40,446 bases of DNA from a virus, in the IMG/VR virus record IMGVR_UViG_3300025138_000098, positions 1 to 40,446 of that record; one strand, 5' to 3'. A program made the position numbers and the translations under genes. How positions within the stretch are numbered: the stretch's first letter is position 1; each line of letters starts with the position of its first letter. The notes under the pieces were generated by a model that saw only the letters and a list, made by a program, of their open reading frames with translations, had not been told where the DNA came from and did not search any database. Below are positions 13,848 through 40,446 of the stretch, in pieces.

Positions 13848-15842
13848 TTAACCAGAGCAAGCTACGCATTCATCATCGTCATCATTGCTCTGTTCTATTG
13901 GTTTATTTAAAAATTCCATCAATTCTGCATATCCACCAACATATTCACCATCAATATATACTTGTGGTACAGATTTTACATCTTTACGACCTGTTACTTC
14001 TGCCGCAGTTTTGCCTATTTCTTTTAAATCAATTTTATCAAATGGAATACCTCGTAATTTTAGTTCTTCCATAGCCATAGAACAGAATGGACAATCTATT
14101 TTTGAATAAACAATACTACGCATATCACCTTGAAGTGCAACTCTTTCTACTTTCTCAGATACATTTTCAGCACGCTGTTTTGCTTCTGTACGAAGATAAT
14201 ACAAACCTTTTAGTCCTTCTTTCCACGCACGAAGGTGTACTTGATTTACATAAGATTTAGGCGCACCAGCTGGGAAAAACAGATTGACAGACTGACCTTG
14301 ACAGATATACTTCTGTCGATCAGCTGCGTGTTGTACTACCCAATTTTGATCTAACTCATCAGCAGTTTTGAAAACAGATTTTTCTCCTTCAGTGAGAAAT
14401 GGTAGATGTTGTACAGAACCTTTCTTAGTGATAATAGAAGTCCAATTTACATCGTTGTTTTCATCTTTCTGTGTCAATAATGATTCGAGGTATTTATTCT
14501 TTACTAAAAATGACCCTGCTCTTGTGCGATGTGTATATGCATTAGCCTTTAATGGTTCAATAGACGGACTAGTCGCAAGTATTACACCACTTGATGCATT
14601 GGGTGCGACAGCAAGAAGATGTGAATTTCTTCTGCCTGAATCTGGGCCATCTGGATATGCACCACGTTCTAATGCTAAACGCTCTGTTTCTTCAACAGCT
14701 TGAGTCTTGATGTAATTAAATACAACATCATTAATCTCTTTTGCTTTATCAGATTCCCACGCAACACCATGTTTTTGTAAAAGACTATGAAACCCCATAG
14801 CACCTAGTCCGATTGACCTTTCTCTACTCGCACTAAACTTAGCACGTTCAATTGTATCTGGAGCATTCTCAATAAAATAATTCAAAACATTATCAAGCAT
14901 ACGAACCAAATCAGCAACAATCGGAGTATCTTTCCAATCATCATAGTATTCAAGATTTAGTGATGACAGACAACAAACAGCTGTGCGTTCTGCACTAGTC
15001 GGTAAGTGAATCTCATTACATAAATTAGACCCATTGATTTTTAAACCTAAGTCTTTTAGTGGTTGTGGTAAATCACGATTAGCAGTATCAATAAAGTTTA
15101 AATAGGGTTCACCTGTTCTGAACCTTATTTCAAGTATTCTTTCCCAAAGTTTTCTTGCATTTACTGTTTCTTTAACACTACCATCTTTAGGGTCGCGTAA
15201 GTTAAAGCCTATTCCCTCAGTAATTGCGTTCATAAACTCATCAGTAACATTGATAGCATTATGTAAGTTAAGTGCTTTTCGTTGCACATCACCTGTGGGA
15301 ATACGCATATTTAAGAACTCAATAATATCAGGGTGAGATATATCAATATATGCCGCATACGAACCCTTGCGTGTCTTACCTTGACGATATGCAATCATAT
15401 CAGCGTCTACTGTGTGTAAGAAAGGCATTGGGCCAGGCGCTATGTCTGATACTGTACGAACATCAGACCAATGACCACCAACACCACCACCATAAACTGA
15501 TAACCAACGCAACTCAGATGTATGACTAATAAGACCTTCTAAAGTATCAGGAACATACGATAAGAAACAAGATATCGGTTGTCCTTTACCTTTTTTAGAT
15601 CCATTGGGTGCGTTTGATAATACTGGACTAGCAAACATAAACCATTTATTAGAAACATAATTATATAATCGTTGTGCTAGATTCTCATCTAACTCACCTT
15701 CATAAGTTGACCATGCAATAGACGCTCTTTTAAATGCCTCTTGTGGTGATGTTTCGTATTCTGTTAAGTAAAAATCTTTTAACATTCCTATAGCATAGGA
15801 TTCTAGTAATTTGTCTTTTTCTTTATCTAATCTTACTGACAT
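13848..15842 (-). CDS. nrdA: Ribonucleotide reductase large subunit NrdA with internal glutaredoxin domain
   Basis: 664 residues. It reduces ribonucleoside diphosphates to the deoxy form. The catalytic cysteines are in place: QPISCFLSYVPDTLE, SNLCNEIHLP (thiyl Cys with N and E), and CCLSSLNLE; RSIGLGAMGFHSL is the usual loop. The N-terminal ATP-cone (about 90 residues in E. coli) is absent. Near residue 574 a glutaredoxin fold begins (MRSIVYSKIDCPFCSMAMEE, with CPFC at 584-587 and SVPQVYIDGEYVGGY), and the normal C-terminal redox tail (CVAC, 659-662) comes after it, so the domain is inserted before the tail. Start ATG 15842 behind AAAGGGG. Confidence 0.95.
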   Translation of the reverse strand: MSVRLDKEKDKLLESYAIGMLKDFYLTEYETSPQEAFKRASIAWSTYEGELDENLAQRLYNYVSNKWFMFASPVLSNAPNGSKKGKGQPISCFLSYVPDTLEGLISHTSELRWLSVYGGGVGGHWSDVRTVSDIAPGPMPFLHTVDADMIAYRQGKTRKGSYAAYIDISHPDIIEFLNMRIPTGDVQRKALNLHNAINVTDEFMNAITEGIGFNLRDPKDGSVKETVNARKLWERILEIRFRTGEPYLNFIDTANRDLPQPLKDLGLKINGSNLCNEIHLPTSAERTAVCCLSSLNLEYYDDWKDTPIVADLVRMLDNVLNYFIENAPDTIERAKFSASRERSIGLGAMGFHSLLQKHGVAWESDKAKEINDVVFNYIKTQAVEETERLALERGAYPDGPDSGRRNSHLLAVAPNASSGVILATSPSIEPLKANAYTHRTRAGSFLVKNKYLESLLTQKDENNDVNWTSIITKKGSVQHLPFLTEGEKSVFKTADELDQNWVVQHAADRQKYICQGQSVNLFFPAGAPKSYVNQVHLRAWKEGLKGLYYLRTEAKQRAENVSEKVERVALQGDMRSIVYSKIDCPFCSMAMEELKLRGIPFDKIDLKEIGKTAAEVTGRKDVKSVPQVYIDGEYVGGYAELMEFLNKPIEQSNDDDDECVACSG

Positions 15843-15863
15843 GTCAATCCCCTTTGAATACAA

Positions 15864-25551: not shown

Positions 25552-26562
25552 TTACCCATTTCCATTTCCAGAACTTTGTCCATTACCATTCTGTCCATTT
25601 CCAGAACTTTGTCCATTACCATTCTGTCCATTACCATTCTGTCCATTTTGTGATTGATCTGTCTGTTGATTTTCTCCGTTACCATTACGTTTACCAACAA
25701 AATATGGATATGCATATACTTGTTTAAATTTAGATTTTACTGGAACACAGACCATTAGTTTTCTATCAAACTTATATCCAGCCGGACACTTAAAACCATG
25801 TACATCTTCTTTCTGCATTTGTTTGGTTTTCTTTTTCATCTTTTCGATGTACGCACGATAAACACCAGCCTCTGCGGTCTTACCCATTTCTTTTGCTCTT
25901 TGTTCCATTGCAACTGCAGCTTGCACCTTATGTGCATGTGTTTTACTAGAGTTATCTATTTTACTTACACTACTCTTTGCATCTTTAACAGTTGCAAACT
26001 TCAATCCCTGTATTGTTCCTTTTGGGTTTTCGTCTGTGTATAAGTCAGAATGTTTATCACTTCCTGCTGGTTGTCCTTTTTTTCTAGGTATTCTGGGTTC
26101 TTCTTTAAACTGTTCAAAACTTAACTTTGGCCCAGATGTCTGGAAGTTCTTTTTTCTCATTACTGTCTTTGCAACGAGTTCCAATTCTCCACGCTTTAGG
26201 TTTAGTACAAAAGGCATGTTGATATTAGTTTTCATATCATTGATTACTGCTTCAGCATCAGGCCCTAATTTTGCAATCTTCTTACCATACTTTTTGTAAG
26301 ACTGTTTAAATAACCTCGTTAGTTCTGCTGAAGTGATTTGTTTAACATTTCTTGAGTCATTAACTCTATCTAAAAAATGTCTTGTGAACTCGACATCAAT
26401 GCCTAGAGATGCAAATATTTTGTCTGCATATTTTTCTATTTGATCTAGGTCTGATTTTTTGACTTCTTTTTCATCTGCTGCATTTAAATCCCCCATAGGA
26501 TACATTTTATCTAATGCAGGCCCAAAAGAATTTTCATCAAGATATGTTAAAAATGTTTTCAT
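25552..26562 (-). CDS. Conserved phage protein, capsid-targeting-like N-terminus and Asn/Gly repeat tail
   Basis: 336 residues. The N-terminus MKTFLTYLDEN resembles T4 capsid-targeting peptides (MKTYQEFIxEA). Residues 30-140 are an unassigned helical domain. The centre, PRKKGQPAGSDKHSDLYTDE then PKGTIQGLKFATVKDAKSSV and SKTHAHKVQAAVAMEQRAKE, resembles a family of phage proteins recalled as DUF5872/6321. A CPAGYKFDRKLMVCVP stretch contains two cysteines. The C-terminus is a low-complexity Asn/Gly/Gln tail encoded by a 33-base tandem repeat. Probable virion protein. Confidence 0.6.
   Translation of the reverse strand: MKTFLTYLDENSFGPALDKMYPMGDLNAADEKEVKKSDLDQIEKYADKIFASLGIDVEFTRHFLDRVNDSRNVKQITSAELTRLFKQSYKKYGKKIAKLGPDAEAVINDMKTNINMPFVLNLKRGELELVAKTVMRKKNFQTSGPKLSFEQFKEEPRIPRKKGQPAGSDKHSDLYTDENPKGTIQGLKFATVKDAKSSVSKIDNSSKTHAHKVQAAVAMEQRAKEMGKTAEAGVYRAYIEKMKKKTKQMQKEDVHGFKCPAGYKFDRKLMVCVPVKSKFKQVYAYPYFVGKRNGNGENQQTDQSQNGQNGNGQNGNGQSSGNGQNGNGQSSGNGNG
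25562..25647 (-). repeat. 33-base tandem repeat coding an Asn/Gly-rich tail
   Basis: Two exact 33-base copies (25562-25594 and 25595-25627) followed by a partial third, encoding QSSGNGQNGNG units at the C-terminus of the 336-residue protein. In-frame tandem copies suggest slippage-driven length change. Confidence 0.85.
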
Positions 26563-27689: not shown

Positions 27690-28054
27690 TACAGTTCCTT
27701 CAATGTTTTACAGACAAATACATCTGTTTCTATATGTTCTAATTCATCTTCCCTAAGAATATTTAGGAACAATAAAAATGCTTTCATTGCAGGCCAATAC
27801 TGATCTTGTATTTTAAATAACAAGAGAGTTGCACAAGCATCTGCACCAAAAACATTATTTAAGACAATAATATGATTTAATAACAATCTTTCTTTCAAGA
27901 TTCCTGTATCATAATATTTTCTTAAAAGTCGTTTTATATACTTAAACCTTTTAAGGTCATCTTCAAATTCTTTTTCACCCATACAATGTGGATTGTCATA
28001 ATGTTTTATAGCGTACATGATAACATTATCGGGTGTTATCCTTTCATACATCAA
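27689..28054 (-). CDS. Conserved phage protein (IKHYDNPHC type)
   Basis: 121 residues. MYAIKHYDNPHCMGEKEFED, RFKYIKRLLRKYYDTGILK, ERLLLNHIIVLNNVFGADA and YWPAMKAFLLFLNIL form a helical pattern that I recall from many cyanophage genomes (recalled as DUF7207). No catalytic motif is visible. It lies head-to-tail with overlapping start and stop codons on both sides. Confidence 0.62.
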   Translation of the reverse strand: MMYERITPDNVIMYAIKHYDNPHCMGEKEFEDDLKRFKYIKRLLRKYYDTGILKERLLLNHIIVLNNVFGADACATLLLFKIQDQYWPAMKAFLLFLNILREDELEHIETDVFVCKTLKEL

Positions 28055-28503
28055 CCAATACTGGCGTAAACTTTACATGATTGATTTTTTGGCATCATTT
28101 CATATTCAATTTTTAAGCTTAAGCCGCCTTCAACAACATGGGAAATACCATCATCATTAACAAATTCATCGTAAGGAGTATTTTCATCTTTACCGAACCT
28201 ACCACCAAATCGTGATAGTGGCAAGTCAAATTTACCACCTTGTCCTTCCATAGTTGGAACTGCACCAAACTCTAGACCAATTTTGTTCAAAGAACCTCTA
28301 AGTCTATGTATTGCATGTTCTGGCATAAGATATTCCATATTGCCTATCTGTCCAACAATTGCATTTATTCTTTTACGAACAGCAGGGTTTGCAAGATCAC
28401 TAGGATTATTTGCAATATCACCACCTAAGTTTTTTGGATTTTCTCCAACAGGGCCTGTGGGAAAACCACTATCCTCTGTTACGAACTTTGTGAAAGATTT
28501 CAT
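28051..28503 (-). CDS. Conserved phage protein with capsid-targeting-like N-terminus
   Basis: 150 residues. It starts MKSFTKFVTED, like the T4 capsid-targeting peptides, followed by a disordered PTGPVGENPKNLGG stretch and a folded part (VRKRINAIVGQIGNMEYLMP, HAIHRLRGSLNKIGLEFGAV, GGLSLKIEYEMMP). I recall the pattern from cyanophage virion-associated proteins. A role inside the capsid is inferred from the N-terminus and neighbours only. It starts right after the terminator at 28533-28564, so its promoter must lie in 28504-28537 or upstream read-through occurs. Confidence 0.6.
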   Translation of the reverse strand: MKSFTKFVTEDSGFPTGPVGENPKNLGGDIANNPSDLANPAVRKRINAIVGQIGNMEYLMPEHAIHRLRGSLNKIGLEFGAVPTMEGQGGKFDLPLSRFGGRFGKDENTPYDEFVNDDGISHVVEGGLSLKIEYEMMPKNQSCKVYASIG

Positions 28504-31283: not shown

Positions 31284-32585
31284 TTATGATGCAGCGACAT
31301 CAACACCTCTTAGGATGTTTGCTGAACCAGATGTAGTACCAGATTCCAAGAATGTAGCAATATCACTTAGTGAATTTTCTACAACATATGGATCGGTATT
31401 GAGATCATCACCTTCCTCGTTTCTACCATCGCTGTTGTTTGAAGCTGCATTACCAGATTCTTGAACAAGTCTGAATACATCACCTTGTCCTCCAGCTACT
31501 CCATTTAAGTTTTCAGTACCAACTTCAAGTTCAAGTGCGACACTATCGTCTGCGCCAGTTCTTGTAATAGTTTTAATGTCTGAACGACTATTAAACAATG
31601 GCCCTGCGACTGTAAAGTTAACTGAGTCAGATATGATTTCATCACCACCATTTGTAGATGCAAGTAAAACTATGTTGTTTGCAACTGTGATTGGTTCACT
31701 AACTGTAACACTTGTTTGTGAAGCGACAGCAGTAATTGTTAATGTGTTGTTTGTTGAAATTGCTGTGTTTCCATCTGCATCAGTAATTGAAGCAGCAGGA
31801 GCACTACCAGCACCATTAACTGTTATAACTTGACCTACAGCAAGTGTTGCACCAGCGACTGCATCAACAACAAGAGTTGTTGATTGTGTCAATGCACCAT
31901 TTACTGTCAATGTTGCAGCTGCACTTCCGTCTGCAATCAAACTGTCACCAGCAGTTCCAGCTGCAGCAGTTCCACTTTCTAGACGTATACCTATTGCAGA
32001 CTTTCCATCTTCTTCTTCAAGATTTGCACTTCCGTCAAAGTTTATACCTGTAATGATACCTGTTTCACCAACACCCTCACCATTGAAAGCAAGGAAACCA
32101 GCAGCAGCATTAGTCTGTGCAGTTCCTCTGAATGTTATTTGGTTAGTTCCAGAACCTTCGTAATACATACAAGCAACTGTACTATCTTCTACCATGTCTG
32201 TTTTACCAACTCTTGATAGCAAGATATATGCTTTGTTTGTTATTGTTTGGTTTGCAGACCATGCGGCAGATGTAATATCTACTGCTTCATCAAAGGTTAC
32301 TGTAATGTCAAACAATCCAGTGTCAGCTATTGTTGCATCTGTCCAATCAATACCGATGATAGAGGCAGAACCCATAAATTCTGCAATGTTTTTGACACAA
32401 ACCAGAACTTCTGGTTGTGCATTTGGATTATCGTTACCAGAAGCTGCAAGGCCTGGGGATAATCCCCAACCGCCAGCGACTGCGATACAATGTTCTCTTG
32501 CACCAGTTGAACCAGCTGCATTACTATCTACTGGTAAAAATTTTGGTTTGTCTTCGGCGGCAGTTGTTGTTCCCCATAGACTCAT
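31284..32585 (-). CDS. Virion structural protein (MSLWGxTTAAEDKPKF type)
   Basis: 433 residues. The start MSLWGTTTAAEDKPKFLPVD is a pattern I recall from structural proteins of T4-like marine phages. A long middle part is Ala/Thr/Val-rich beta repeats (LTVNGALTQSTTLVVDAVAG, AVGQVITVNGAGSAPAAS) as in tail-sheath- or decoration-type beta-sandwich proteins. Preceded by a TATAAATA late promoter (32624) and a good ribosome site (AAGGAGAAAG). Late expression supports a structural role; exact position in the virion unknown. Confidence 0.75.
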   Translation of the reverse strand: MSLWGTTTAAEDKPKFLPVDSNAAGSTGAREHCIAVAGGWGLSPGLAASGNDNPNAQPEVLVCVKNIAEFMGSASIIGIDWTDATIADTGLFDITVTFDEAVDITSAAWSANQTITNKAYILLSRVGKTDMVEDSTVACMYYEGSGTNQITFRGTAQTNAAAGFLAFNGEGVGETGIITGINFDGSANLEEEDGKSAIGIRLESGTAAAGTAGDSLIADGSAAATLTVNGALTQSTTLVVDAVAGATLAVGQVITVNGAGSAPAASITDADGNTAISTNNTLTITAVASQTSVTVSEPITVANNIVLLASTNGGDEIISDSVNFTVAGPLFNSRSDIKTITRTGADDSVALELEVGTENLNGVAGGQGDVFRLVQESGNAASNNSDGRNEEGDDLNTDPYVVENSLSDIATFLESGTTSGSANILRGVDVAAS

Positions 32586-32623: not shown

Positions 32624-32631
32624 TATTTATA
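32624..32631 (-). promoter_or_regulatory. T4-type late promoter box
   Basis: TATAAATA followed by GT on the minus strand, about 39 bases before the ATG of the 433-residue structural gene, in the gap next to the nucleotidase stop. Confidence 0.78.
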
Positions 32632-32632
32632 A

Positions 32633-33148
32633 TTATTTGAAACCTAATCGTTTCAAATCTGTTATTGTTTTAGAAACACTAGTGTGGTGTATTCCTATAC
32701 CACCCTTTGCTTCCCATTCTTTAATATTTTTTATATAATCATCAATAAGGACATTTGGTTTACCATTAGTCATGGCATAAAGTTGTTTTTGTTTTCGTTT
32801 TACCAAATGTATTTTGCTTCTTGGGAATTTAACATTCTTCGATAGCCACTTCAATTTACCATTTTGGGAACTAGGATCATTACTACTATAAGCAGAGAGA
32901 ATATGTGCATCATATTTTGAAATAAATCCATATAATCTCTTAGCACCAGACATCCAATCTAAGTCTGCCCAAAAATTCTTAGTGTTAGCGATAGCTTTCC
33001 ATCTTTCAGGTTTATCTACTTCGGGAAATGGTTTTCCTAACACTTTTTCTGCACCTTTCATAAGTGCAACCAGTACTTCATCCATATCACAATAGATGGC
33101 TGGCAATTCGTCTTTACTTGCCTCCATCATTTGTTCTAAATTTTTCAT
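32633..33148 (-). CDS. HAD-family 5'-nucleotidase
   Basis: 171 residues. HAD motif I is YCDMDEVLVAL (Asp-x-Asp); motif III region RKQKQLYAMTNGKPN and motif IV VLIDDYIKNIKEWEAKGG (paired Asp) are visible, with ILSAYSSND as motif II-like. This is the class of small (deoxy)nucleotidases found in phages; it may dephosphorylate nucleotides. The first residues MKNLEQMMEASKDE resemble T4 capsid-targeting peptides, so it may be packaged. A promoter lies just upstream (33185-33213). Confidence 0.78.
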   Translation of the reverse strand: MKNLEQMMEASKDELPAIYCDMDEVLVALMKGAEKVLGKPFPEVDKPERWKAIANTKNFWADLDWMSGAKRLYGFISKYDAHILSAYSSNDPSSQNGKLKWLSKNVKFPRSKIHLVKRKQKQLYAMTNGKPNVLIDDYIKNIKEWEAKGGIGIHHTSVSKTITDLKRLGFK

Positions 33149-33216: not shown

Positions 33217-34818
33217 TTAATCTTTCATTTCAGGTTCAATAGTAACTTTAGTTGTAGGTTTACCTGTCATAGTTTTATTTTCTTTTTTAGGTGCATCATG
33301 TGTGTAACCCATATCTTTCATTCGTAGATGGTCAGCCATAGTGGTTGCCTTAAAACCTTTGCCAGTCTTAGGGTCATACATCATGTGAGGTTTGAACTCA
33401 TCTGCTTCTTTGATAAAAGGATTATGTCCTTCATCAACACTCCACATCTTGGCAAGTGCTTCACGCATGGTGTCATTTTTCTTATGCATTACACCAACTG
33501 TTTCATCCCAATCTTCTTGAGATTGGCCTGGAGTTACTTCTAATGTGTGTTTTGTGCGTTCTGGTGTTCCAAATTCATAGTTTTCTTTTTTGTAATCTTC
33601 TACTTTATATGTTTTACCAGAAACAACAAAAGTCTTTTCACCTTTTTCTTTTGCAGCATTAAGTGCGCCAGTAAACTTGTTACCTTCGTCCTTAGACATT
33701 GCTTTAGAAATTGCTTTGCGTCTTTTGTGTAAAAACTCGTCAGAATCATCTACATCACCATCATTGTCAATGTCCTTATCTTTACGATCATCAAACTTTT
33801 TCTTAGCAGCAGTTTTATTTACTGGGTCAAGTTTTTCATCTAAGTCTTCATTCTGTCGTTTAATAACAGCTGCAACTTTAGGGTCTTTAGACAATCCTTT
33901 TTTAATTTTTTCAATTGCACTCATAGCACCTGTCATATTACCACCAGCATATCTCTTATCTGATGCAATACCGATTGCCATCTTAATTTCTTTTGGTGAG
34001 AACTTTTCATCAAGTTCAACTTCTTCTTTTTTTGATTTTATTGATTTTAATTTTGACATTGCCTTGTTGAAAATGCTTGGTTCTTTACTTTTAACTTCTT
34101 TTTCTAACTTCTTACTGGCATCTATCTCTGCACTATTTGGTTTATAGTTTTTGTCCTTTTTGAATTTGGAAAGCAGTTTACCAACTATTTCTCCCACTTT
34201 AGCATCTAGTTTATAATTGCTGTTTCTATTAGCAACATCATATATCATCAAAGCAGGAAGCACCAACATAGCACCAGTGCCCCATAAAGCATAAAACAAG
34301 GGCCCGAAGTCTTCATCAAGGTCAACTTCTTCATTAACAAATTTCTTGAGATGAGATGGAATATCATCACTAATGGGGTCTTTACCACGCTTCTTACGAT
34401 ATACTAATTCTGCAGCAATCGCATCACCTTCATCACTAATATGGTCAAACTCAAAATCTGTTAGTCCTCTACCTTTTTCATTAGTTTTAGATTTCAACAT
34501 TTTTTGAATTTGTGTTGATCTTTTCCTTAAAGCATTATCTGTTGCTCTTGCAATCTTACGAATATCTTTTTTAGTTCCATTAAATACTTCATCAAGTTCA
34601 ACTTCTTCCATAAGGTGAGCATCAACTCCAGATGTATTTTTAAGTCCTTTCATCTGTGCAAACTTTTTTGCAGCATCATATGAACTTTTTGCTTTAATGA
34701 CCTCTTTACCTTTTTTAACATGAACTACTGTGTATGATCTTTCCTCATCAAGTTCACTACTAACTGCGGCCTTAATTGCTTCCTCAAGGCTACCTGTTTT
34801 TGTATCAAAATATGCCAT
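33217..34818 (-). CDS. Multidomain virion-associated polyprotein-like protein (534-codon)
   Basis: 533 residues. It is a chain of short domains separated by a repeated acidic motif: SSELDE (20-25), EEVELDE (71-77), EEVDLDE (163-169), EEVELDE (265-271), EDLDE (324-328). Domain contents: a small VVHVKKGKEVIKAKSSYDA domain; a helical FNGTKKDIRKIARATDNALR domain; one with a membrane helix (about 174-193); a lysine-rich part; then an EF-hand-like loop DIDNDGDVDDSDE (349-361). I see no enzyme motif. It resembles proteins I recall from cyanophages. Possible prohead-processed cargo; see findings. Confidence 0.7.
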   Translation of the reverse strand: MAYFDTKTGSLEEAIKAAVSSELDEERSYTVVHVKKGKEVIKAKSSYDAAKKFAQMKGLKNTSGVDAHLMEEVELDEVFNGTKKDIRKIARATDNALRKRSTQIQKMLKSKTNEKGRGLTDFEFDHISDEGDAIAAELVYRKKRGKDPISDDIPSHLKKFVNEEVDLDEDFGPLFYALWGTGAMLVLPALMIYDVANRNSNYKLDAKVGEIVGKLLSKFKKDKNYKPNSAEIDASKKLEKEVKSKEPSIFNKAMSKLKSIKSKKEEVELDEKFSPKEIKMAIGIASDKRYAGGNMTGAMSAIEKIKKGLSKDPKVAAVIKRQNEDLDEKLDPVNKTAAKKKFDDRKDKDIDNDGDVDDSDEFLHKRRKAISKAMSKDEGNKFTGALNAAKEKGEKTFVVSGKTYKVEDYKKENYEFGTPERTKHTLEVTPGQSQEDWDETVGVMHKKNDTMREALAKMWSVDEGHNPFIKEADEFKPHMMYDPKTGKGFKATTMADHLRMKDMGYTHDAPKKENKTMTGKPTTKVTIEPEMKD

Positions 34819-34820
34819 CT

Positions 34821-36617
34821 TTATTTCCCCTTTATAGCATTGAGTAAGCCAGTATATGACTTAGCGATTGTTGTTTGAAACTTCATTTTATCTTGAGGTT
34901 TCATTTTACTGTGTACATCTAATGCTTTCTGTGCGATTGCAGCTGGAACTTTCTTTTTATATCCATGTCCAATATCTGCAAATTCTACATCTTTCTTTCC
35001 ATTCATATCAACAGACTTTTTAAGTTGCAAAATAATATTCTTTGCAGCTAGTGCTACATCTTTTGATGATGCATCGTCATCAACATCAGCAGGATCAATG
35101 AGTTCATTGATTGGTACTTCGATACCTTGAGTTCCTAAAATTCTTGAAATGCCACTTGCATAAGCTTTCATAGTATCAAGTTCAGTTTCTTCTTCTAAAT
35201 TTACTTCTTCTTTATACATGTTAAGTTCATATCTTTTGTTATCAAGATTAGCAACTTGAACTTGGATTGCTTTCTTGCCATCTGTTCCAACTAAACGATA
35301 AGAGTTTGTCTTACCAGAAGATGGTTTCTTTGGCCCAGTAGCAACTTTTCTATCAATTTCTTTAGGGTCAACAGTGATACCAAACTTTTTCTTTGCAAAG
35401 GCATATGAGTGTTGCATTGCATCAGAGAATGATTTGTGATATAGTTCGTAACCAGTAGAAGACTTAGCTTCGTCAAGTTCAGCAGACTCTTTAAAAGATT
35501 GACCCATCAACTTATCAGCTGCTTTTTGACTTAAAGGTTTCTTCAGTGCGACTACCTTCAAAGTGTTCTTATTTTTAACTGACATAGGTGGACGTTCAGC
35601 AGAATTTTTAGACTGTTTTACTTGTTCTTCACTAGACGCCATTGAAACAACTTCGTTGCGGTTAGCGGTGTCAACAAGAACATGCGAAATCTTAATTGCT
35701 TCGTCAAGTTCGACTTCTTCTTTGACTGCTTTTTCTAATTCTTTTGCTTGGCCAGCGTGTGATTGACTTGCACCCTTTAACTTTTTGATTATCTCTTTAA
35801 CTTTGGGTTCGTCTTCTGTATCTAAGTCTTCTTTCTTAGGTTTTTCTCCTCTTTCTTTCTTGGAGATTGCAATTGCAGCTTGTTGTGCAGGAGATACAGC
35901 TTCTTTAGTTTCACCCATTAGTGAATCGTGATTTTTGACTGCATATTCTTCAGCATCTTTTCTGTCTTTAAATAATTTTATTTCATTACCTTTTGTATCA
36001 AACACACAGAACATATCTGGATTGTTTTTACTTCTAGCAACATGATCTTTTGGATTCATTTGTTCATCAGCTTCTTCAACACTTTCTAATGCTTTTGCTC
36101 TTTTAGCACCACTGTAAAAATTCATTACATCTTTTATCTCTCTACCTATATCAGCACCTTTTTTTCCAGTAATAGTTATCATACTACCACTCACATCTAC
36201 TGTATGACCTAATTTCTCTAAGTCTTTTTTTGCTTTCATCATATCAGACTTATTTCTTTTATCAAACTCTACACTTACTTTTTTCATTTCATCAAGTTCA
36301 ACTTCTTCTGATACAGATGGAACTAAAAGATAATCTCTCATCTTGTTTATACTAGAGGATACAACTGCGAGTTTGTTTGTCCACCATGAAGGAAGGGAAT
36401 CTTCTGGATTCATAGTTTGTAGTTTCTGTAAAATGTCTTGTGCATCTTCAATAGTAGTTTTGCACTGACGAACAGCAGATGCAACATCAGTATGTCCATC
36501 TTCGTTGATTTGTACATTTTCTTGTAAAGGAGCCCAAGTTGTTTTGCTTGGTTCCATTTTACTTGGATCAAACGATCTCGCTTTCTCCAATAACTCTGAC
36601 ATTCTGACTGTACTCAT
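34821..36617 (-). CDS. Multidomain virion-associated polyprotein-like protein (598 aa)
   Basis: 598 residues from ATG 36617 (behind AAGGGA; a longer frame runs into the 880-residue gene). Motifs EEVELDE at 104-110 and 300-306 and SAELDEA near 379-384, and EEVNLEEETELD near 475. The first domain, HTDVASAVRQCKTTIEDAQD then SLPSWWTNKLAVVSSSINKM, is a recalled phage virion pattern; others (SVEFDKRNKSDMMKAKKDLE, MFCVFDTKGNEIKLFKDRKD, YELYHKSFSDAMQHSYAFAK) are unassigned small folds. It starts five bases after the 880-residue gene stops, so the three long proteins are one operon. Confidence 0.7.
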   Translation of the reverse strand: MSTVRMSELLEKARSFDPSKMEPSKTTWAPLQENVQINEDGHTDVASAVRQCKTTIEDAQDILQKLQTMNPEDSLPSWWTNKLAVVSSSINKMRDYLLVPSVSEEVELDEMKKVSVEFDKRNKSDMMKAKKDLEKLGHTVDVSGSMITITGKKGADIGREIKDVMNFYSGAKRAKALESVEEADEQMNPKDHVARSKNNPDMFCVFDTKGNEIKLFKDRKDAEEYAVKNHDSLMGETKEAVSPAQQAAIAISKKERGEKPKKEDLDTEDEPKVKEIIKKLKGASQSHAGQAKELEKAVKEEVELDEAIKISHVLVDTANRNEVVSMASSEEQVKQSKNSAERPPMSVKNKNTLKVVALKKPLSQKAADKLMGQSFKESAELDEAKSSTGYELYHKSFSDAMQHSYAFAKKKFGITVDPKEIDRKVATGPKKPSSGKTNSYRLVGTDGKKAIQVQVANLDNKRYELNMYKEEVNLEEETELDTMKAYASGISRILGTQGIEVPINELIDPADVDDDASSKDVALAAKNIILQLKKSVDMNGKKDVEFADIGHGYKKKVPAAIAQKALDVHSKMKPQDKMKFQTTIAKSYTGLLNAIKGK

Positions 36618-36622
36618 TTTTA

Positions 36623-39265
36623 TTATCCCTTCATTAAATCTGTTACAGATTTTGCAGACCAAAACTTGCAAGACCAGTATCCTGCTGTAGTTTTATCTTT
36701 TTTCTGATCGCAATTGTGTCTAGCTCTAAATGATTTTCTTCTTTCTGGGTCATCTCGTTTGATTTCCATGTTTGGATCACCAAATTCTACTTTGACCACA
36801 TTGCCTTTATCGTTTTTAACATAAACTTTGTATTTCTTAACATCGCCTTTTGTAGGATTATTAAGTTCTTTACCGCTATTCTTGTCTGTTTCTGTTATTT
36901 CACCCCAACTATTTAGGGATTCTGATTGGTTGACATCAAAGTCAGCCTTTAATTCTTTTGGTAGTTTACCCATAGCAACTAGTTTGTTAACATATGTCAT
37001 CAAAGCTTTTGCATCTACTTTTGTATTATACTGTTTAACTGCCCTACCAGCAAGATGAGCATGTGTTTTTTGTGGTTCGTTTCTTACCAAATTTGCATAG
37101 GCTTTAACAAGAGCGTCATAGTGTTTTGGGTGAGTCATCTTGTAAATTTTATCAAATGCCATTTTACCTAAAGTTTTTTCATCTATGCAATCATCACAAC
37201 AGGATTCTGCGGTTGTTTCTTCTGGAACACAATTAGGAACTTGTTTTCCACCTTTTGTTTTCATACCGACTTGCTTGAAACCATCCCAACAAGGATTTTC
37301 TTCGTTTGTTTTACTTTTGTCTTTTTCACCAAATGCACCACCAGTTCCTAGAACTTCATGTCCTTTTTGTTTCTTCTTTGGTATCATACCAAAATCTTCA
37401 CCACGAACTTGTTTTGCAAGGTCAGCATCTGCTTTCCCCCAAGTTCCAGCAGATTTGGTAACAAAAGAATTAACTCTTGCAAATGCCCATTGTTGTGAAG
37501 TAGTGCCGGGCCGATGTCCTGTCTTGTATGCAGCCATTCCTCTGTCATATACTTTCTTTAGAATACCATACGGCATACCAGATTTCTTTGCTTTTGTTAC
37601 AAGTCCTGCAATCTTTTCATCTAACTGATAAAATTCTAGTTCTTCATTTTTTGATAGATATGCAGCAATCGCCATTTCTTTGCGTTTTTCTTTAGACTTA
37701 CCTTTAAACTGTGGAGAATCAGACTTCTCGAAATCTTTGATATAATCACCCATATCTGCGTCTTTACCAAGAACTTCATTTATTTTAGAAGTATCGGTTG
37801 CCATAAATGGGCCACGCTTTAATGCTTTAAATGATATATTAGTTTCATTACCAAAGATTTCTTTTGGATGAATAATATTAAATGTAACCATTTCAGTTGA
37901 GTTGTTAATTTTTACCAACTCCATGTCTATTTCTTTATATACTTTACCTTTAAATTTAAGACCATGTGCAGTTACAAGTTTCTGAACCTTACCACGAGAA
38001 TTGACTGCTTGTTTTGCTCTTACTTCATCTATGGGTTTCTCACCGAACATCTGTTTGAACTTTTTGGTATGTTTAGATGGTTTAGTTGTTGCAGATGCAT
38101 CGCCTGGCGCTGGCCCTGATTTCTTTTTATCAAAGTGTCTTGCACGAGCTTGTTTAGTAGACTTAGCCATGGTATCACCTTCAGTATCTTTTGCATAATA
38201 CTTTGCTGGTTGAGTACCTTCTCTGTCTTTAATCTCTTTATCTTGTTTTACTTCATTTCTTAATCTTGGTTCTCTACGATTTTTAGATGGGTCTTCCATT
38301 TTCAAATTAGAGGGGTCGTTATTTAGAGGATTATTGTCTTTATGTCCTACATCTTTACCCTTTACTGCTTTGTCACCCATAAGTCTACGAGCTTTGTTTC
38401 TAGAAGAACGTCTTGCAATCTGTTCTGGTGTTCCTTGATAATTTTCGTATTCTTTTTTGTAATCTCGTTCTACAATATCGTGTAACCAAGTCTTATGTAC
38501 TTTTCCATCTTCAGATACAAATGTCAAGTAGTTTGTGCCTTTATTAATAACTTTACCTTCGTGACCATGAGCTTCTACAATGTCACCCACATTCCAAAGT
38601 TTACCTGTAAGATACAAATCTCTGAGTGTTTCAAAGTCTGTCATCTCACCCATATCTCTTTCTTCACGAATACCTAAATTCTTGCGAACATCATTGTAAA
38701 GTTTTAGTGAATCTTTAAAGGTAGATGGAACACCAGTTTTGAATAAATCGAAATTACCATCAGCAGCTGCAGCTCGCATCTTAGATGCAGACATACCAGA
38801 TACACCTTCTGAATCTGGGTCACGTTCTCCAGCAGATACAACTTTGATATCGTCAAAACCATAAAAACCATGTTTGGAATCTACACCATTGTAATTATTG
38901 AGTAGAGTGTTAAACTCTGTAACTCTGTCAGAACCAACAACCATTACAATAGAACGATGTCCTTTTTTATGTAACTCGACAGCTGCTTCCAGAGCAGTTC
39001 TTGATTTGCTTACAATGACATTGCTTTTATACTTTGGAAACATTTTCCTCATATATGCAATTTTTAGTGTGTGTGGTAGTGGATCTTTCTTAGCGTTTTG
39101 TGAATGTGATGGATACACATACATCATAGAACCAGCGTTCTTAGATTGTTGTTTTGCAAGTGCATCTATGAGTTTTTCGTGACCTGTTGTTGGTGGATTA
39201 AATCTACCAAAAGTGAATACAGCTGTATCACCACGAGCCTCTACGATATCTCTAAAATTTTTCAT
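36623..39265 (-). CDS. Large multidomain protein: nucleotidyltransferase, HNH and other modules
   Basis: 880 residues. N-terminus MKNFRDIVEA looks like a T4 capsid-targeting peptide ending in a protease-type site (IVE-A). Domain 1 (about 11-200) is a NadM/NadR-type nucleotidyltransferase: GRFNPPTTGHEKLI (HxGH-like site) and SGMSASKMRAAAADGNF. Domain 2 (about 275-330) is HNH-like: IARRSSRNKARRLM, VGHKDNNPLNNDPSNLKM. Later modules: YDRGMAAYKTGHRPGTTSQQ (recalled as DUF5824), NPCWDGFKQVGMKTK, and a C-terminal RARHNCDQKKDKTTAGYWSC. Internal sites PIDE, QLDE, IVEA separate modules. Substrates unknown. Confidence 0.75.
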   Translation of the reverse strand: MKNFRDIVEARGDTAVFTFGRFNPPTTGHEKLIDALAKQQSKNAGSMMYVYPSHSQNAKKDPLPHTLKIAYMRKMFPKYKSNVIVSKSRTALEAAVELHKKGHRSIVMVVGSDRVTEFNTLLNNYNGVDSKHGFYGFDDIKVVSAGERDPDSEGVSGMSASKMRAAAADGNFDLFKTGVPSTFKDSLKLYNDVRKNLGIREERDMGEMTDFETLRDLYLTGKLWNVGDIVEAHGHEGKVINKGTNYLTFVSEDGKVHKTWLHDIVERDYKKEYENYQGTPEQIARRSSRNKARRLMGDKAVKGKDVGHKDNNPLNNDPSNLKMEDPSKNRREPRLRNEVKQDKEIKDREGTQPAKYYAKDTEGDTMAKSTKQARARHFDKKKSGPAPGDASATTKPSKHTKKFKQMFGEKPIDEVRAKQAVNSRGKVQKLVTAHGLKFKGKVYKEIDMELVKINNSTEMVTFNIIHPKEIFGNETNISFKALKRGPFMATDTSKINEVLGKDADMGDYIKDFEKSDSPQFKGKSKEKRKEMAIAAYLSKNEELEFYQLDEKIAGLVTKAKKSGMPYGILKKVYDRGMAAYKTGHRPGTTSQQWAFARVNSFVTKSAGTWGKADADLAKQVRGEDFGMIPKKKQKGHEVLGTGGAFGEKDKSKTNEENPCWDGFKQVGMKTKGGKQVPNCVPEETTAESCCDDCIDEKTLGKMAFDKIYKMTHPKHYDALVKAYANLVRNEPQKTHAHLAGRAVKQYNTKVDAKALMTYVNKLVAMGKLPKELKADFDVNQSESLNSWGEITETDKNSGKELNNPTKGDVKKYKVYVKNDKGNVVKVEFGDPNMEIKRDDPERRKSFRARHNCDQKKDKTTAGYWSCKFWSAKSVTDLMKG

Positions 39266-40446
39266 TTATCCCATGCCTTTATTGCGGTAAAGTTATTAAA
39301 CGAGAACTCCATTCTGTCCACTAGTTTAACAGCACCACCACTAACCCTATCAATCGCAACATAACCCTCTGGGTTAGTTACTTTAAATCCATTTGCGGTC
39401 TTGATAAAAGTATTTGTCAATCCCTTTACACTATTTAGTTTTTTTACAATTTGCATTTTTGCATCAACCAAATAATTTTGAAATGTGATTATTTGTATTA
39501 AGTTGGTAGTGTGTTTCTTAACTTCTCTTACATATTCTTTCTGTGTATTCTTGTATTTATCTTTTCCTTTTACACTCTTTGCTTTATCAATTTGTTTCTG
39601 AATTGACATCTCAACCCATTTTTCATATCCTTTTGCATGAGCTTTGGGATTAGTAATCTTTTCTCCAGCACGAACCTTACTGTTATTGTATGTTTTGAGA
39701 GATGCACCAGCGATTGCACCTGTCATACTTTCCTGTAGATTAAGAAACTTCTTTAGTTGCATTGAGTTAATCTTTTTAAAAGTAGAACCAGTTGCAGAAA
39801 GTGCAGCTGTTACTGATTCTGTTTCTTTTGAGTTCATTGTAGCACTACCCGATACATCTTTGTAAGTTGCATCGTCCATCCATACTGATGTTGGTTTAGA
39901 TAATCCTTTAATATTTGCACCAAATGATGCTTTCATATCCTGTAATGCTTTACCTGTGTATGTTGTATGCCATACAATACCAATCTTTGCTTTGTTAATC
40001 TGTTTGCCAATATCTGATGTGGGGTCTACAGCATATACGATTGTGTTAGGTTGAAATGTAATGAAAGACTTTCCATCAATTTTTTCATTACCTTTATCTT
40101 CTGATGTAAACATCAAGTCGCCTTGAAGTACATCTTTGATACCTAACTTGGAAAACTCTGCAAGTGCTATCTTGAACTTACTATTCAATGAACCAGATAG
40201 TCCATCTTCATCAATCTCTGCGTTTGTCTTATAGAGTTTTGGAGTTGCATTAAATACTGATTTCTTTGCAACAAAAAACTTACCATCTTCTGGGTCAATA
40301 CCAGCGAATATCGCAGGCGCACCATCCCACTTGACAGTCATGTTGATTGAAGACCGAGCATTACCAGCAAGCATATCTCTTAATGAACGTAGGAAGTTGA
40401 TTGCAGCTCTACCACCATCAACTCCATAGTTAATGATTTCATCTTC
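39262..40446 (-). CDS. KxDG-containing ligase-like phage protein, 5' partial
   Basis: At least 394 residues; the frame continues past the right edge, so the first visible ATG (40374) is not the start. VKWDGAPAIFAGIDPEDGKF contains the K-x-D-G motif of the covalent nucleotidyltransferase (DNA/RNA ligase) superfamily, followed by AKKSVFNATPKLYKTNAEID, LGIKDVLQGDLMFTSEDKG and NTIVYAVDPTSDIGKQINKA. It matches what I recall as DUF6267 of T4-like marine phages. True ligase activity is not shown, since the later motifs are weak. The stop overlaps the next gene's ATG (ATGA). Confidence 0.7.
   Translation of the reverse strand, partial: EDEIINYGVDGGRAAINFLRSLRDMLAGNARSSINMTVKWDGAPAIFAGIDPEDGKFFVAKKSVFNATPKLYKTNAEIDEDGLSGSLNSKFKIALAEFSKLGIKDVLQGDLMFTSEDKGNEKIDGKSFITFQPNTIVYAVDPTSDIGKQINKAKIGIVWHTTYTGKALQDMKASFGANIKGLSKPTSVWMDDATYKDVSGSATMNSKETESVTAALSATGSTFKKINSMQLKKFLNLQESMTGAIAGASLKTYNNSKVRAGEKITNPKAHAKGYEKWVEMSIQKQIDKAKSVKGKDKYKNTQKEYVREVKKHTTNLIQIITFQNYLVDAKMQIVKKLNSVKGLTNTFIKTANGFKVTNPEGYVAIDRVSGGAVKLVDRMEFSFNNFTAIKAWDK

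Follow-up and report, generated by a model that had tools for sequence, protein, structure and literature searches.

The window analyzed here, the whole of a 40,446-base virus fragment (IMG/VR record IMGVR_UViG_3300025138_000098), carries on its minus strand a cassette with three consecutive genes for modular proteins, P1, P2 and P3, in which the heptapeptide EEVELDE and shorter forms of it recur as linkers. We suggest, with a probability of about 0.7, that the cassette encodes late-expressed, modular cargo polyproteins that are packaged into the phage head, are predicted to be cut by the gp21-type prohead protease at LxE linkers, and would then be ejected into the host. Packaging is supported by data on homologues, cleavage is predicted, and injection is inferred. 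A preliminary description of the window had proposed prohead-cleaved polyproteins injected as a multi-enzyme cargo, an interpretation that, taken as a whole, is partly supported by our analysis; its core, namely T4-type, late and head-associated modular cargo in which gp21-type sites lie where modules meet, is well supported by comparison with relatives. The window is a piece of a Kyanoviridae-like marine phage, and its best protein matches belong to the T4 superfamily, family Kyanoviridae; the closest relatives of P3 and P2 were found in Methylophilales phage Melnitz and Pelagibacter phage HTVC008M, P1 was matched by Melnitz phages only, and homologues of P3 are present in 562 phage records.

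A repeated linker separates exchangeable modules

P1–P3 together contain nine LDE sites, of which five have the full form EEV[ED]LDE (Table 1). P1 contains five sites (SSELDE, EEVELDE, EEVDLDE, EEVELDE and NEDLDE) and P2 contains three (EEVELDE twice, and SAELDE), together with the variant EEVNLEE. P3 has a single LDE site (YQLDE) and short forms only (PIDE, KINE, QLDE and CIDE), the full form being limited to P1 (three sites) and P2 (two sites). A search of the DNA with the pattern GARGARGTNGARYTNGAYGAR, allowing up to two mismatches, gave five matches in the cassette (34006, 34312, 34588, 35700 and 36288) and one in an unrelated place; 0.03 copies of this 21-nt linker were expected by chance, and none of 100 shuffles reached the observed count. 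The scrambled heptapeptide DEVELEE had 73 matches in all of IMG/VR, none of them doubled, versus more than 120 matches for each codon class of EEVELDE.

The borders of homology were located with 77 nonredundant motif proteins from about 90 related viral contigs and from reference phages, after the motif had been masked. Homology started directly behind the masked motif in 27% of the ends of high-scoring segment pairs and stopped directly before it in 33%, compared with 4–6% for random masks of equal size, a five- to sixfold excess of borders at the motif. One of the patterns used to recruit contigs was KEEVELDE; Melnitz, HTVC008M, one other locus set and the scrambled-motif control were independent of it. 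The preliminary description, which had reported at least nine LDE-type motifs in three consecutive genes, near-identical DNA copies of the motif, and a position at the junctions of unlike domains, is therefore upheld on the first two points, with the full form in P1 and P2 only, and on the third in statistical terms.

Modules have moved between proteins and have been lost as units. A module of 82 aa is shared by 20 contigs, in which it has 17 distinct neighbours on its left and 15 on its right. In the near-identical relative L016, two P1 modules are absent and exactly one 21-nt linker is left. The module VFNGTKKDIRK...KKF lies in P1 in the window but in P2 of L016 and L027, with EEVELDE on each side, and L030 and L031 lack the stretch between ELDE and SAELDE of P2. 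Global alignment yielded 14 clean indels with a length of 30 aa or more (separate BLAST segments had yielded four events only), and 7 of the 14 had both edges at [LIVM][DENQ]E, where 0.9 were expected and the maximum in 200 randomisations was 4. The domains thus shuffle while the motif stays, as the module network, the alignments and the indels all indicate; this had been put forward earlier as a check across related phages. Borders, indels and junction context bear out a polyprotein-like layout, in which one open reading frame (ORF) holds separable modules with repeated candidate protease sites at their joints.

The linker is also conserved as DNA. In the clade of the window, its leucine codon is CTT in 128 of 143 nonredundant copies, versus 28% of the other leucine codons in the same ORFs, and its synonymous conservation exceeds codon usage, dropping sharply to near zero bits in the flanks (window 34006–36308; L001 and L007–L099). 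These features, and the excisions that leave exactly one linker copy, would be expected if the motif were kept as a 21-nt recombination linker for module exchange with no proteolytic role. Nevertheless, other lineages encode the same linker peptide with TTA or TTG, multi-copy proteins included, degenerate junctions retain [LIVM]xE and not the DNA word, and the leaders and the residue bias behind the linker (see below) are protein-level features, so we consider this explanation very improbable. Purely DNA-level conservation was likewise rejected as a general account, being strong in the window clade but at odds with the TTA/TTG lineages. We attribute the DNA conservation to descent and exchange within the clade, in addition to selection acting on the protein; the clean excisions suggest that the linker may have a role in recombination.

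The linkers resemble sites of a prohead protease

The prohead protease gp21 of T4 cuts after Glu in L/I-x-E, and T4 internal proteins have a leader of 10–19 residues in which positions 4 and 7 serve targeting and positions 8 and 10 processing (passages of PMC9026906). Behind the linker motif, Ala is enriched 4-fold and Gly 1.7-fold; in contigs seeded with the motif, 71 of 227 motif copies are followed by Ala, versus 3 of 54 copies of the scrambled DEVELEE. An Ala at this P1' position resembles the sites of T4 gp21. Among homologues of module starts that lack the strict motif, [LIVM]xE is found in the preceding 12 residues in 73%, compared with 18% of random 12-mers from the same ORFs. The L/I-x-E logic of the preliminary description is thus borne out by the retention of [LIVM]xE and by the Ala at P1'. 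Sites of the same kind occur in the head proteins of the relatives: gp23 of Melnitz and HTVC008M has FLSE/A and FLGE/I (the slash marks the predicted cut), respectively, at the expected place, and gp21 of these phages has YITE/A and LIAE/A close to its own N-terminus.

A depletion of LxE inside the modules was also considered and rejected. The [LI]xE sequence is enriched there (427, versus 313 in shuffled modules), and the depletion argument therefore gives no support.

Leaders, late promoter and protease gene

The IPIII leader of T4 is MKTYQEFIAEA. The cytidylyltransferase proteins of the cassettes have comparable N-termini: MKNFRDIVE/A in the window, MKKFSEIIE/A in Melnitz, MKKFSAFLNE/A in S-SM1, MKSFLQFLKE/A in S-SCSM1, MKNFFQFLSE/A in SynMITS9220M01 and MKLFNQFFKE/A in S-CRM01, and MTxYxxTMxE/A is a frequent start of modular proteins. 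Leaders resembling a capsid-targeting sequence (CTS) were found in 21 of 58 cassette genes and 31 of 564 others (Fisher p=1.4e-10), and in 37 of 140 motif-bearing ORFs of motif-seeded contigs versus 287 of 1977 (p=4e-4), an enrichment that comes from a looser pattern with a background of 6–15%, the strict pattern giving few cassette matches. The N-termini of P1 and P2 do not fit the CTS-like pattern; that of P3 does. The idea of T4-like internal proteins, already voiced in the preliminary description, agrees with the T4-like capsid-targeting N-termini of P3 and of cassette genes.

Some modules that lie behind a linker in the window stand alone elsewhere. The DUF5824 module of P3, behind QLDE, is a separate 90-aa gene in phage C48C1 (L101 13404–13676), with the start MITFKKYLEE...SIDLEE/, and in L264 this module starts with MINFKKYLAE. 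Modules resembling that behind KINE in P3 sit behind leaders in L134 and L287.

Two genes of the window outside the cassette (25552–26562 and 28051–28503, both on the minus strand) have T4-CTS-like N-termini, MKTFLTYLDE/NS and MKSFTKFVTE/DS, and their products could be further head cargo. A kinase-like cassette protein of S-CRM01 (L105 8672–11137) has the CTS-like start MISFDQFLSE/K, in agreement with reports of kinases in cyanophage virions.

The word TATAAATA, the late-promoter word of T4, lies 40 bp before the first cassette gene of Melnitz and occurs 12 times in the Melnitz head region, versus 3 expected; its counts in the window and in HTVC008M are at or below chance. One occurrence in the window (32624–32631, minus strand) is directly upstream of the MSLWG gene (31284–32585), the window total being at chance level. 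Motif proteins are basic, with a median isoelectric point of 9.2 versus 5.8, a charge that likens them to T4 internal proteins.

A gp21-type (S77) protease is encoded in all 8 motif contigs longer than 105 kb, and gp21 (S77) is encoded by Melnitz and HTVC008M. The search for gp21 that had been recommended earlier was thus successful in motif-bearing relatives; within the 40-kb window no such gene was found, and the PF03420 search made for it is uninformative, its control having been equally silent.

Virion proteins of relatives

Cassette orthologues have been detected in the virions of four cyanophages. According to passages of the respective papers, the virion proteome of S-SM1 contains the cytidylyltransferase T4-GC190 (PMC3037559), S-CREM2 virions contain ORF154 (cytidylyltransferase) and its neighbours 155 and 156 (PMC10665884), the cytidylyltransferase of S-SZBM1 was found in S-SZBM1 virions (PMC9146016), and 45 virion proteins of S-SCSM1 were identified by mass spectrometry (MS; PMC9602691). 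The S-SCSM1 record annotates gp089, gp282, the NMNAT gp281, gp280 and gp279 as virion proteins, and gp280 bears KKEEVELDERT. The packaging proposed in the preliminary description is supported as far as orthologous cassette proteins in these virions are concerned; a position of these proteins inside the head is probable.

The virion data bear on two other explanations. The cassette might encode ordinary auxiliary metabolic or DNA-processing proteins that act within the infected host, their repeats being products of duplication, and the cytidylyltransferase/NMNAT, deoxyribonucleotidase and HNH-like domains near replication genes would suit such a role. The virion orthologues in these four cyanophages, the late promoter of Melnitz and the CTS-like leaders make this the least probable of the explanations considered. 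The proteins might instead be extra prohead core (scaffold) proteins like gp22 and gp67 of T4, chopped at LxE sites into fragments that leave the head, and hence not cargo. In T4, gp21 cleaves both gp22 and gp67 into several pieces (passages of PMC9026906), and the cassette has leader and late-promoter features in common with head genes. We consider a scaffold role quite unlikely, given that relatives have a separate gp22, that the modules are individually conserved, shuffled and basic, one of them being a nucleotidyltransferase, and that cassette products of relatives are still present in mature virions, as reported in the passages cited above.

Several observations weigh against cleaved cargo. 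The EEV prefix of the linker exceeds what gp21 is known to need; the excess of [LI]xE inside modules is partly due to degenerate linkers, but part of it may represent true internal sites; the leader of the HTVC008M cytidylyltransferase (MKTLKELLRKK) has no Glu; and the S77 association above 50 kb, with 11 of 17 motif contigs versus 3 of 15 scrambled-motif contigs, comes from a small number of contigs. The above-mentioned failure to find gp21 in the window belongs here too. Passages of two cyanophage proteome papers warn of possible carry-over, the preparations being CsCl-purified, the passages of the virion papers report no processing of cassette orthologues, and full-length cassette proteins may be present in virions. 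It is conceivable that the proteins are packaged but uncut, as multi-domain polyvalent proteins in which the acidic EEVELDE would form flexible spacers or motifs for docking to the prohead core: the presence of orthologues in virions says nothing on processing, linker conservation reaches the EEV prefix, beyond L-x-E, and Iyer et al. (2017) described injected multi-domain polyvalent proteins, some of them transferred uncut (PMC5512222). However, [LIVM]xE is the part that is retained where the strict motif is absent, a mere spacer gives no reason for the Ala enrichment at P1', and the same modules are elsewhere preceded by N-terminal leaders that have L/I-x-E at their end. Packaging without cleavage therefore appears unlikely to us, and we retain the cleaved cargo polyprotein as the preferred explanation.

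Layout and domains of the cassette

The position and gene order of the cassette are the same in Melnitz and HTVC008M: it lies behind the replicative helicase and comprises DUF6267, small genes, the cytidylyltransferase protein, modular proteins, a deoxyribonucleotidase and an M[AG]LWG/S-layer-like gene. The window carries the same run of genes on its minus strand (Table 1).

Table 1. Cassette genes, leader, linkers and related module loci (a slash marks a predicted cut)
Feature	Position	Strand	Remarks
DUF6267 protein	39262-40446	-	PF19782, E=9.8e-100; conserved upstream partner of cassette; 5' end beyond window
P3	36623-39265	-	880 aa; leader MKNFRDIVE/A, cytidylyltransferase/NMNAT-like, HNH-like segment, DUF5824, DUF5754-like C-terminus; homologous to virion protein T4-GC190
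P2	34821-36671	-	616 aa with TTG start, 598 aa with ATG start at 36617; modular; family known for shuffled modules only
P1	33217-34818	-	533 aa; modular; phrog_22379/4359 matches; contains DKDIDNDGDVDDSDEFLHKRR module common to Kyanoviridae cassettes
5'-3' deoxyribonucleotidase (NT5C)	32633-33148	-	Cassette downstream end; leader MKNLEQMME/AS; Pfam/PHROG
P3 capsid-targeting-like leader MKNFRDIVE	39239-39265	-	Cut predicted before A10; T4 rule (PMC9026906, passages) and cassette enrichment
P3 short linker PIDE/VRA	38024-38044	-	
P3 short linker KINE/VLGKDADMGDYIKDF	37775-37795	-	Similar module directly behind leader in L134, L287
P3 short linker YQLDE/KIAGL	37616-37636	-	Ahead of DUF5824 module; same module is a separate gene in C48C1
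P3 short linker CIDE/KTLGKM	37178-37198	-	
P2 linker EEVELDE/MK	36288-36308	-	
P2 linker EEVELDE/AI	35700-35720	-	
P2 short linker SAELDE/AKSSTGYELYHK	35469-35489	-	End point of module loss in L030/L031
P2 variant linker EEVNLEE/ET	35190-35210	-	
P1 short linker SSELDE/ER	34744-34764	-	Near N-terminus
P1 linker EEVELDE/VF, GAAGAAGTTGAACTTGATGAA	34588-34608	-	Left edge of module pair missing in L016
P1 linker EEVDLDE/DF	34312-34332	-	
P1 linker EEVELDE/KF	34006-34026	-	Right edge of module pair missing in L016
P1 short linker NEDLDE/KLDPVNK	33835-33855	-	Counterparts EEVELEE/KLDPV in L025, SELEE/KLDPV in L026
DKDIDNDGDVDDSDEFLHKRR module, other loci	L104 12943-14505; L103 12940-14295; L100 12920-14341; L102 12954-14060; L101 17384-18148		

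P3 contains two or more unlike domains, as polyvalent proteins do, with the cytidylyltransferase and DUF5824 above the Pfam cut-offs and HNH and DUF5754 below them. The cytidylyltransferase is the only enzyme domain in P1–P3 that passes the curated Pfam cut-off. P2 had no Pfam or PHROG match, and P1, P2 and the other modules of P3 matched no known enzyme family in these databases. No peptidase domain was found in P1–P3 with Pfam and PHROG, and a single weak Peptidase_S9 match was obtained among 48 motif proteins. In these 48 proteins, Pfam identified cytidylyltransferase, DUF5824 and HNH domains in a few and mostly nothing else. The term multi-enzyme, used for the cargo in the preliminary description, is not justified by so few matches and was an overstatement, with one enzyme domain above cut-off and most modules without recognisable function. 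The AlphaFold2 models of P2 and P1 were of low confidence (pLDDT 54.6 and 55.5, respectively) and a PDB fold search with them gave no match below E=0.05, so module functions were not obtained. The models weakly suggest that the LxE junctions of P1 and P2 lie within or border low-pLDDT segments.

A module with an EF-hand-like acidic loop (DKDIDNDGDVDDSDEFLHKRR) follows NEDLDE in P1 of the window (upstream of 33835, minus strand) and is found in several Kyanoviridae cassettes; one protein with this module is annotated as a virion protein. Elsewhere in the window, the large subunit of ribonucleotide reductase (13848–15863, minus strand) has a C-terminal thioredoxin-like segment (phrog_22, residues 565–654).

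A predicted packaging and release pathway

The cassette would be transcribed late, together with the head genes, as the Melnitz promoter suggests, and a short N-terminal capsid-targeting leader would dock each chain in the prohead core, a step consistent with the leaders and with the virion MS of orthologues. The S77 prohead protease is predicted to remove the leader and also to cut after Glu at the LDE/IDE linkers. Its products would be small, mostly basic modules of about 50–160 aa, set free in much the same way as the internal proteins of T4, each of which is released singly. These modules would probably stay with the DNA and be ejected into the host. Near-identical relatives indicate that the linkers are the points at which modules have been acquired, discarded or transferred from gene to gene in evolution, and, as a consequence of exchange at these points, a new module would arrive with its own cut site.

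A broader proposal, for which the odds appear slightly unfavourable to us, is that a marine lineage of DNA phages follows a polyprotein strategy for its head cargo. Dozens of interchangeable basic modules would be mounted on a standard linker that serves both as a predicted gp21 site and, within the clade of the window, as a near-fixed 21-nt recombination joint, such that a module captured between two linkers would need no additional adaptation to be packaged, released and ejected. If cleaved cargo is the correct explanation, a large pool of unannotated proteins of T4-like ocean phages would be explained as head cargo in which the module borders can be read. This would allow prediction of the small proteins that marine phages may deliver at the onset of infection, including many candidates for counter-defence or host takeover, and would provide a natural format for packaging multiple proteins in T4-type heads.

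Comparison with known systems

Internal proteins as such are familiar from T4, but we did not find a shuffled, multi-site cargo polyprotein described in the literature, nor a paper naming EEVELDE in this sense or a prohead-protease cargo polyprotein of a phage. The closest parallel is provided by IPI, IPII, IPIII and Alt of T4, which, in passages of PMC9026906 and PMC3012670, have leaders with hydrophobic or aromatic residues at positions 4 and 7–8 and Glu at 9–10, followed by Ala; the same passages document L/I-x-E site logic, small basic products and hypervariable cargo behind a conserved leader. T4 differs in having one gene per cargo and a terminal propeptide, whereas the cassette strings several modules together with internal sites and has an internal linker whose fixed consensus, EEVELDE, is longer. 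Polyvalent proteins, which their authors liken to polyproteins (PMC5512222), also combine several unlike domains in one polypeptide, are virion-associated and are thought to be injected, the virion link of the cassette being through orthologues. Their release has been proposed to depend on embedded peptidase domains, whereas we propose a trans-acting prohead protease and repeated linker sites. In giant phages of the SPN3US/phiKZ type, many head-packaged proteins are cut after Glu by a gp21-like protease, but passages of PMC9026906 and further abstracts do not describe repeated linkers between shuffled modules in these phages.

Polyproteins of RNA viruses are likewise single chains with repeated protease sites, here candidate sites, between unlike domains; the cassette differs in belonging to a DNA phage, in the proposed trans action of a morphogenetic protease within the prohead, and in its unrelated domains. 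Swapping of T4-type tail-fibre adhesins between conserved motifs was reportedly described by Tetart in 1998 (cited in PMC3012670). In those adhesins, as in the cassette, short conserved motifs flank interchangeable modules, but the cassette motif doubles as a predicted protease site, and the modules of the cassette are proposed to be internal cargo.

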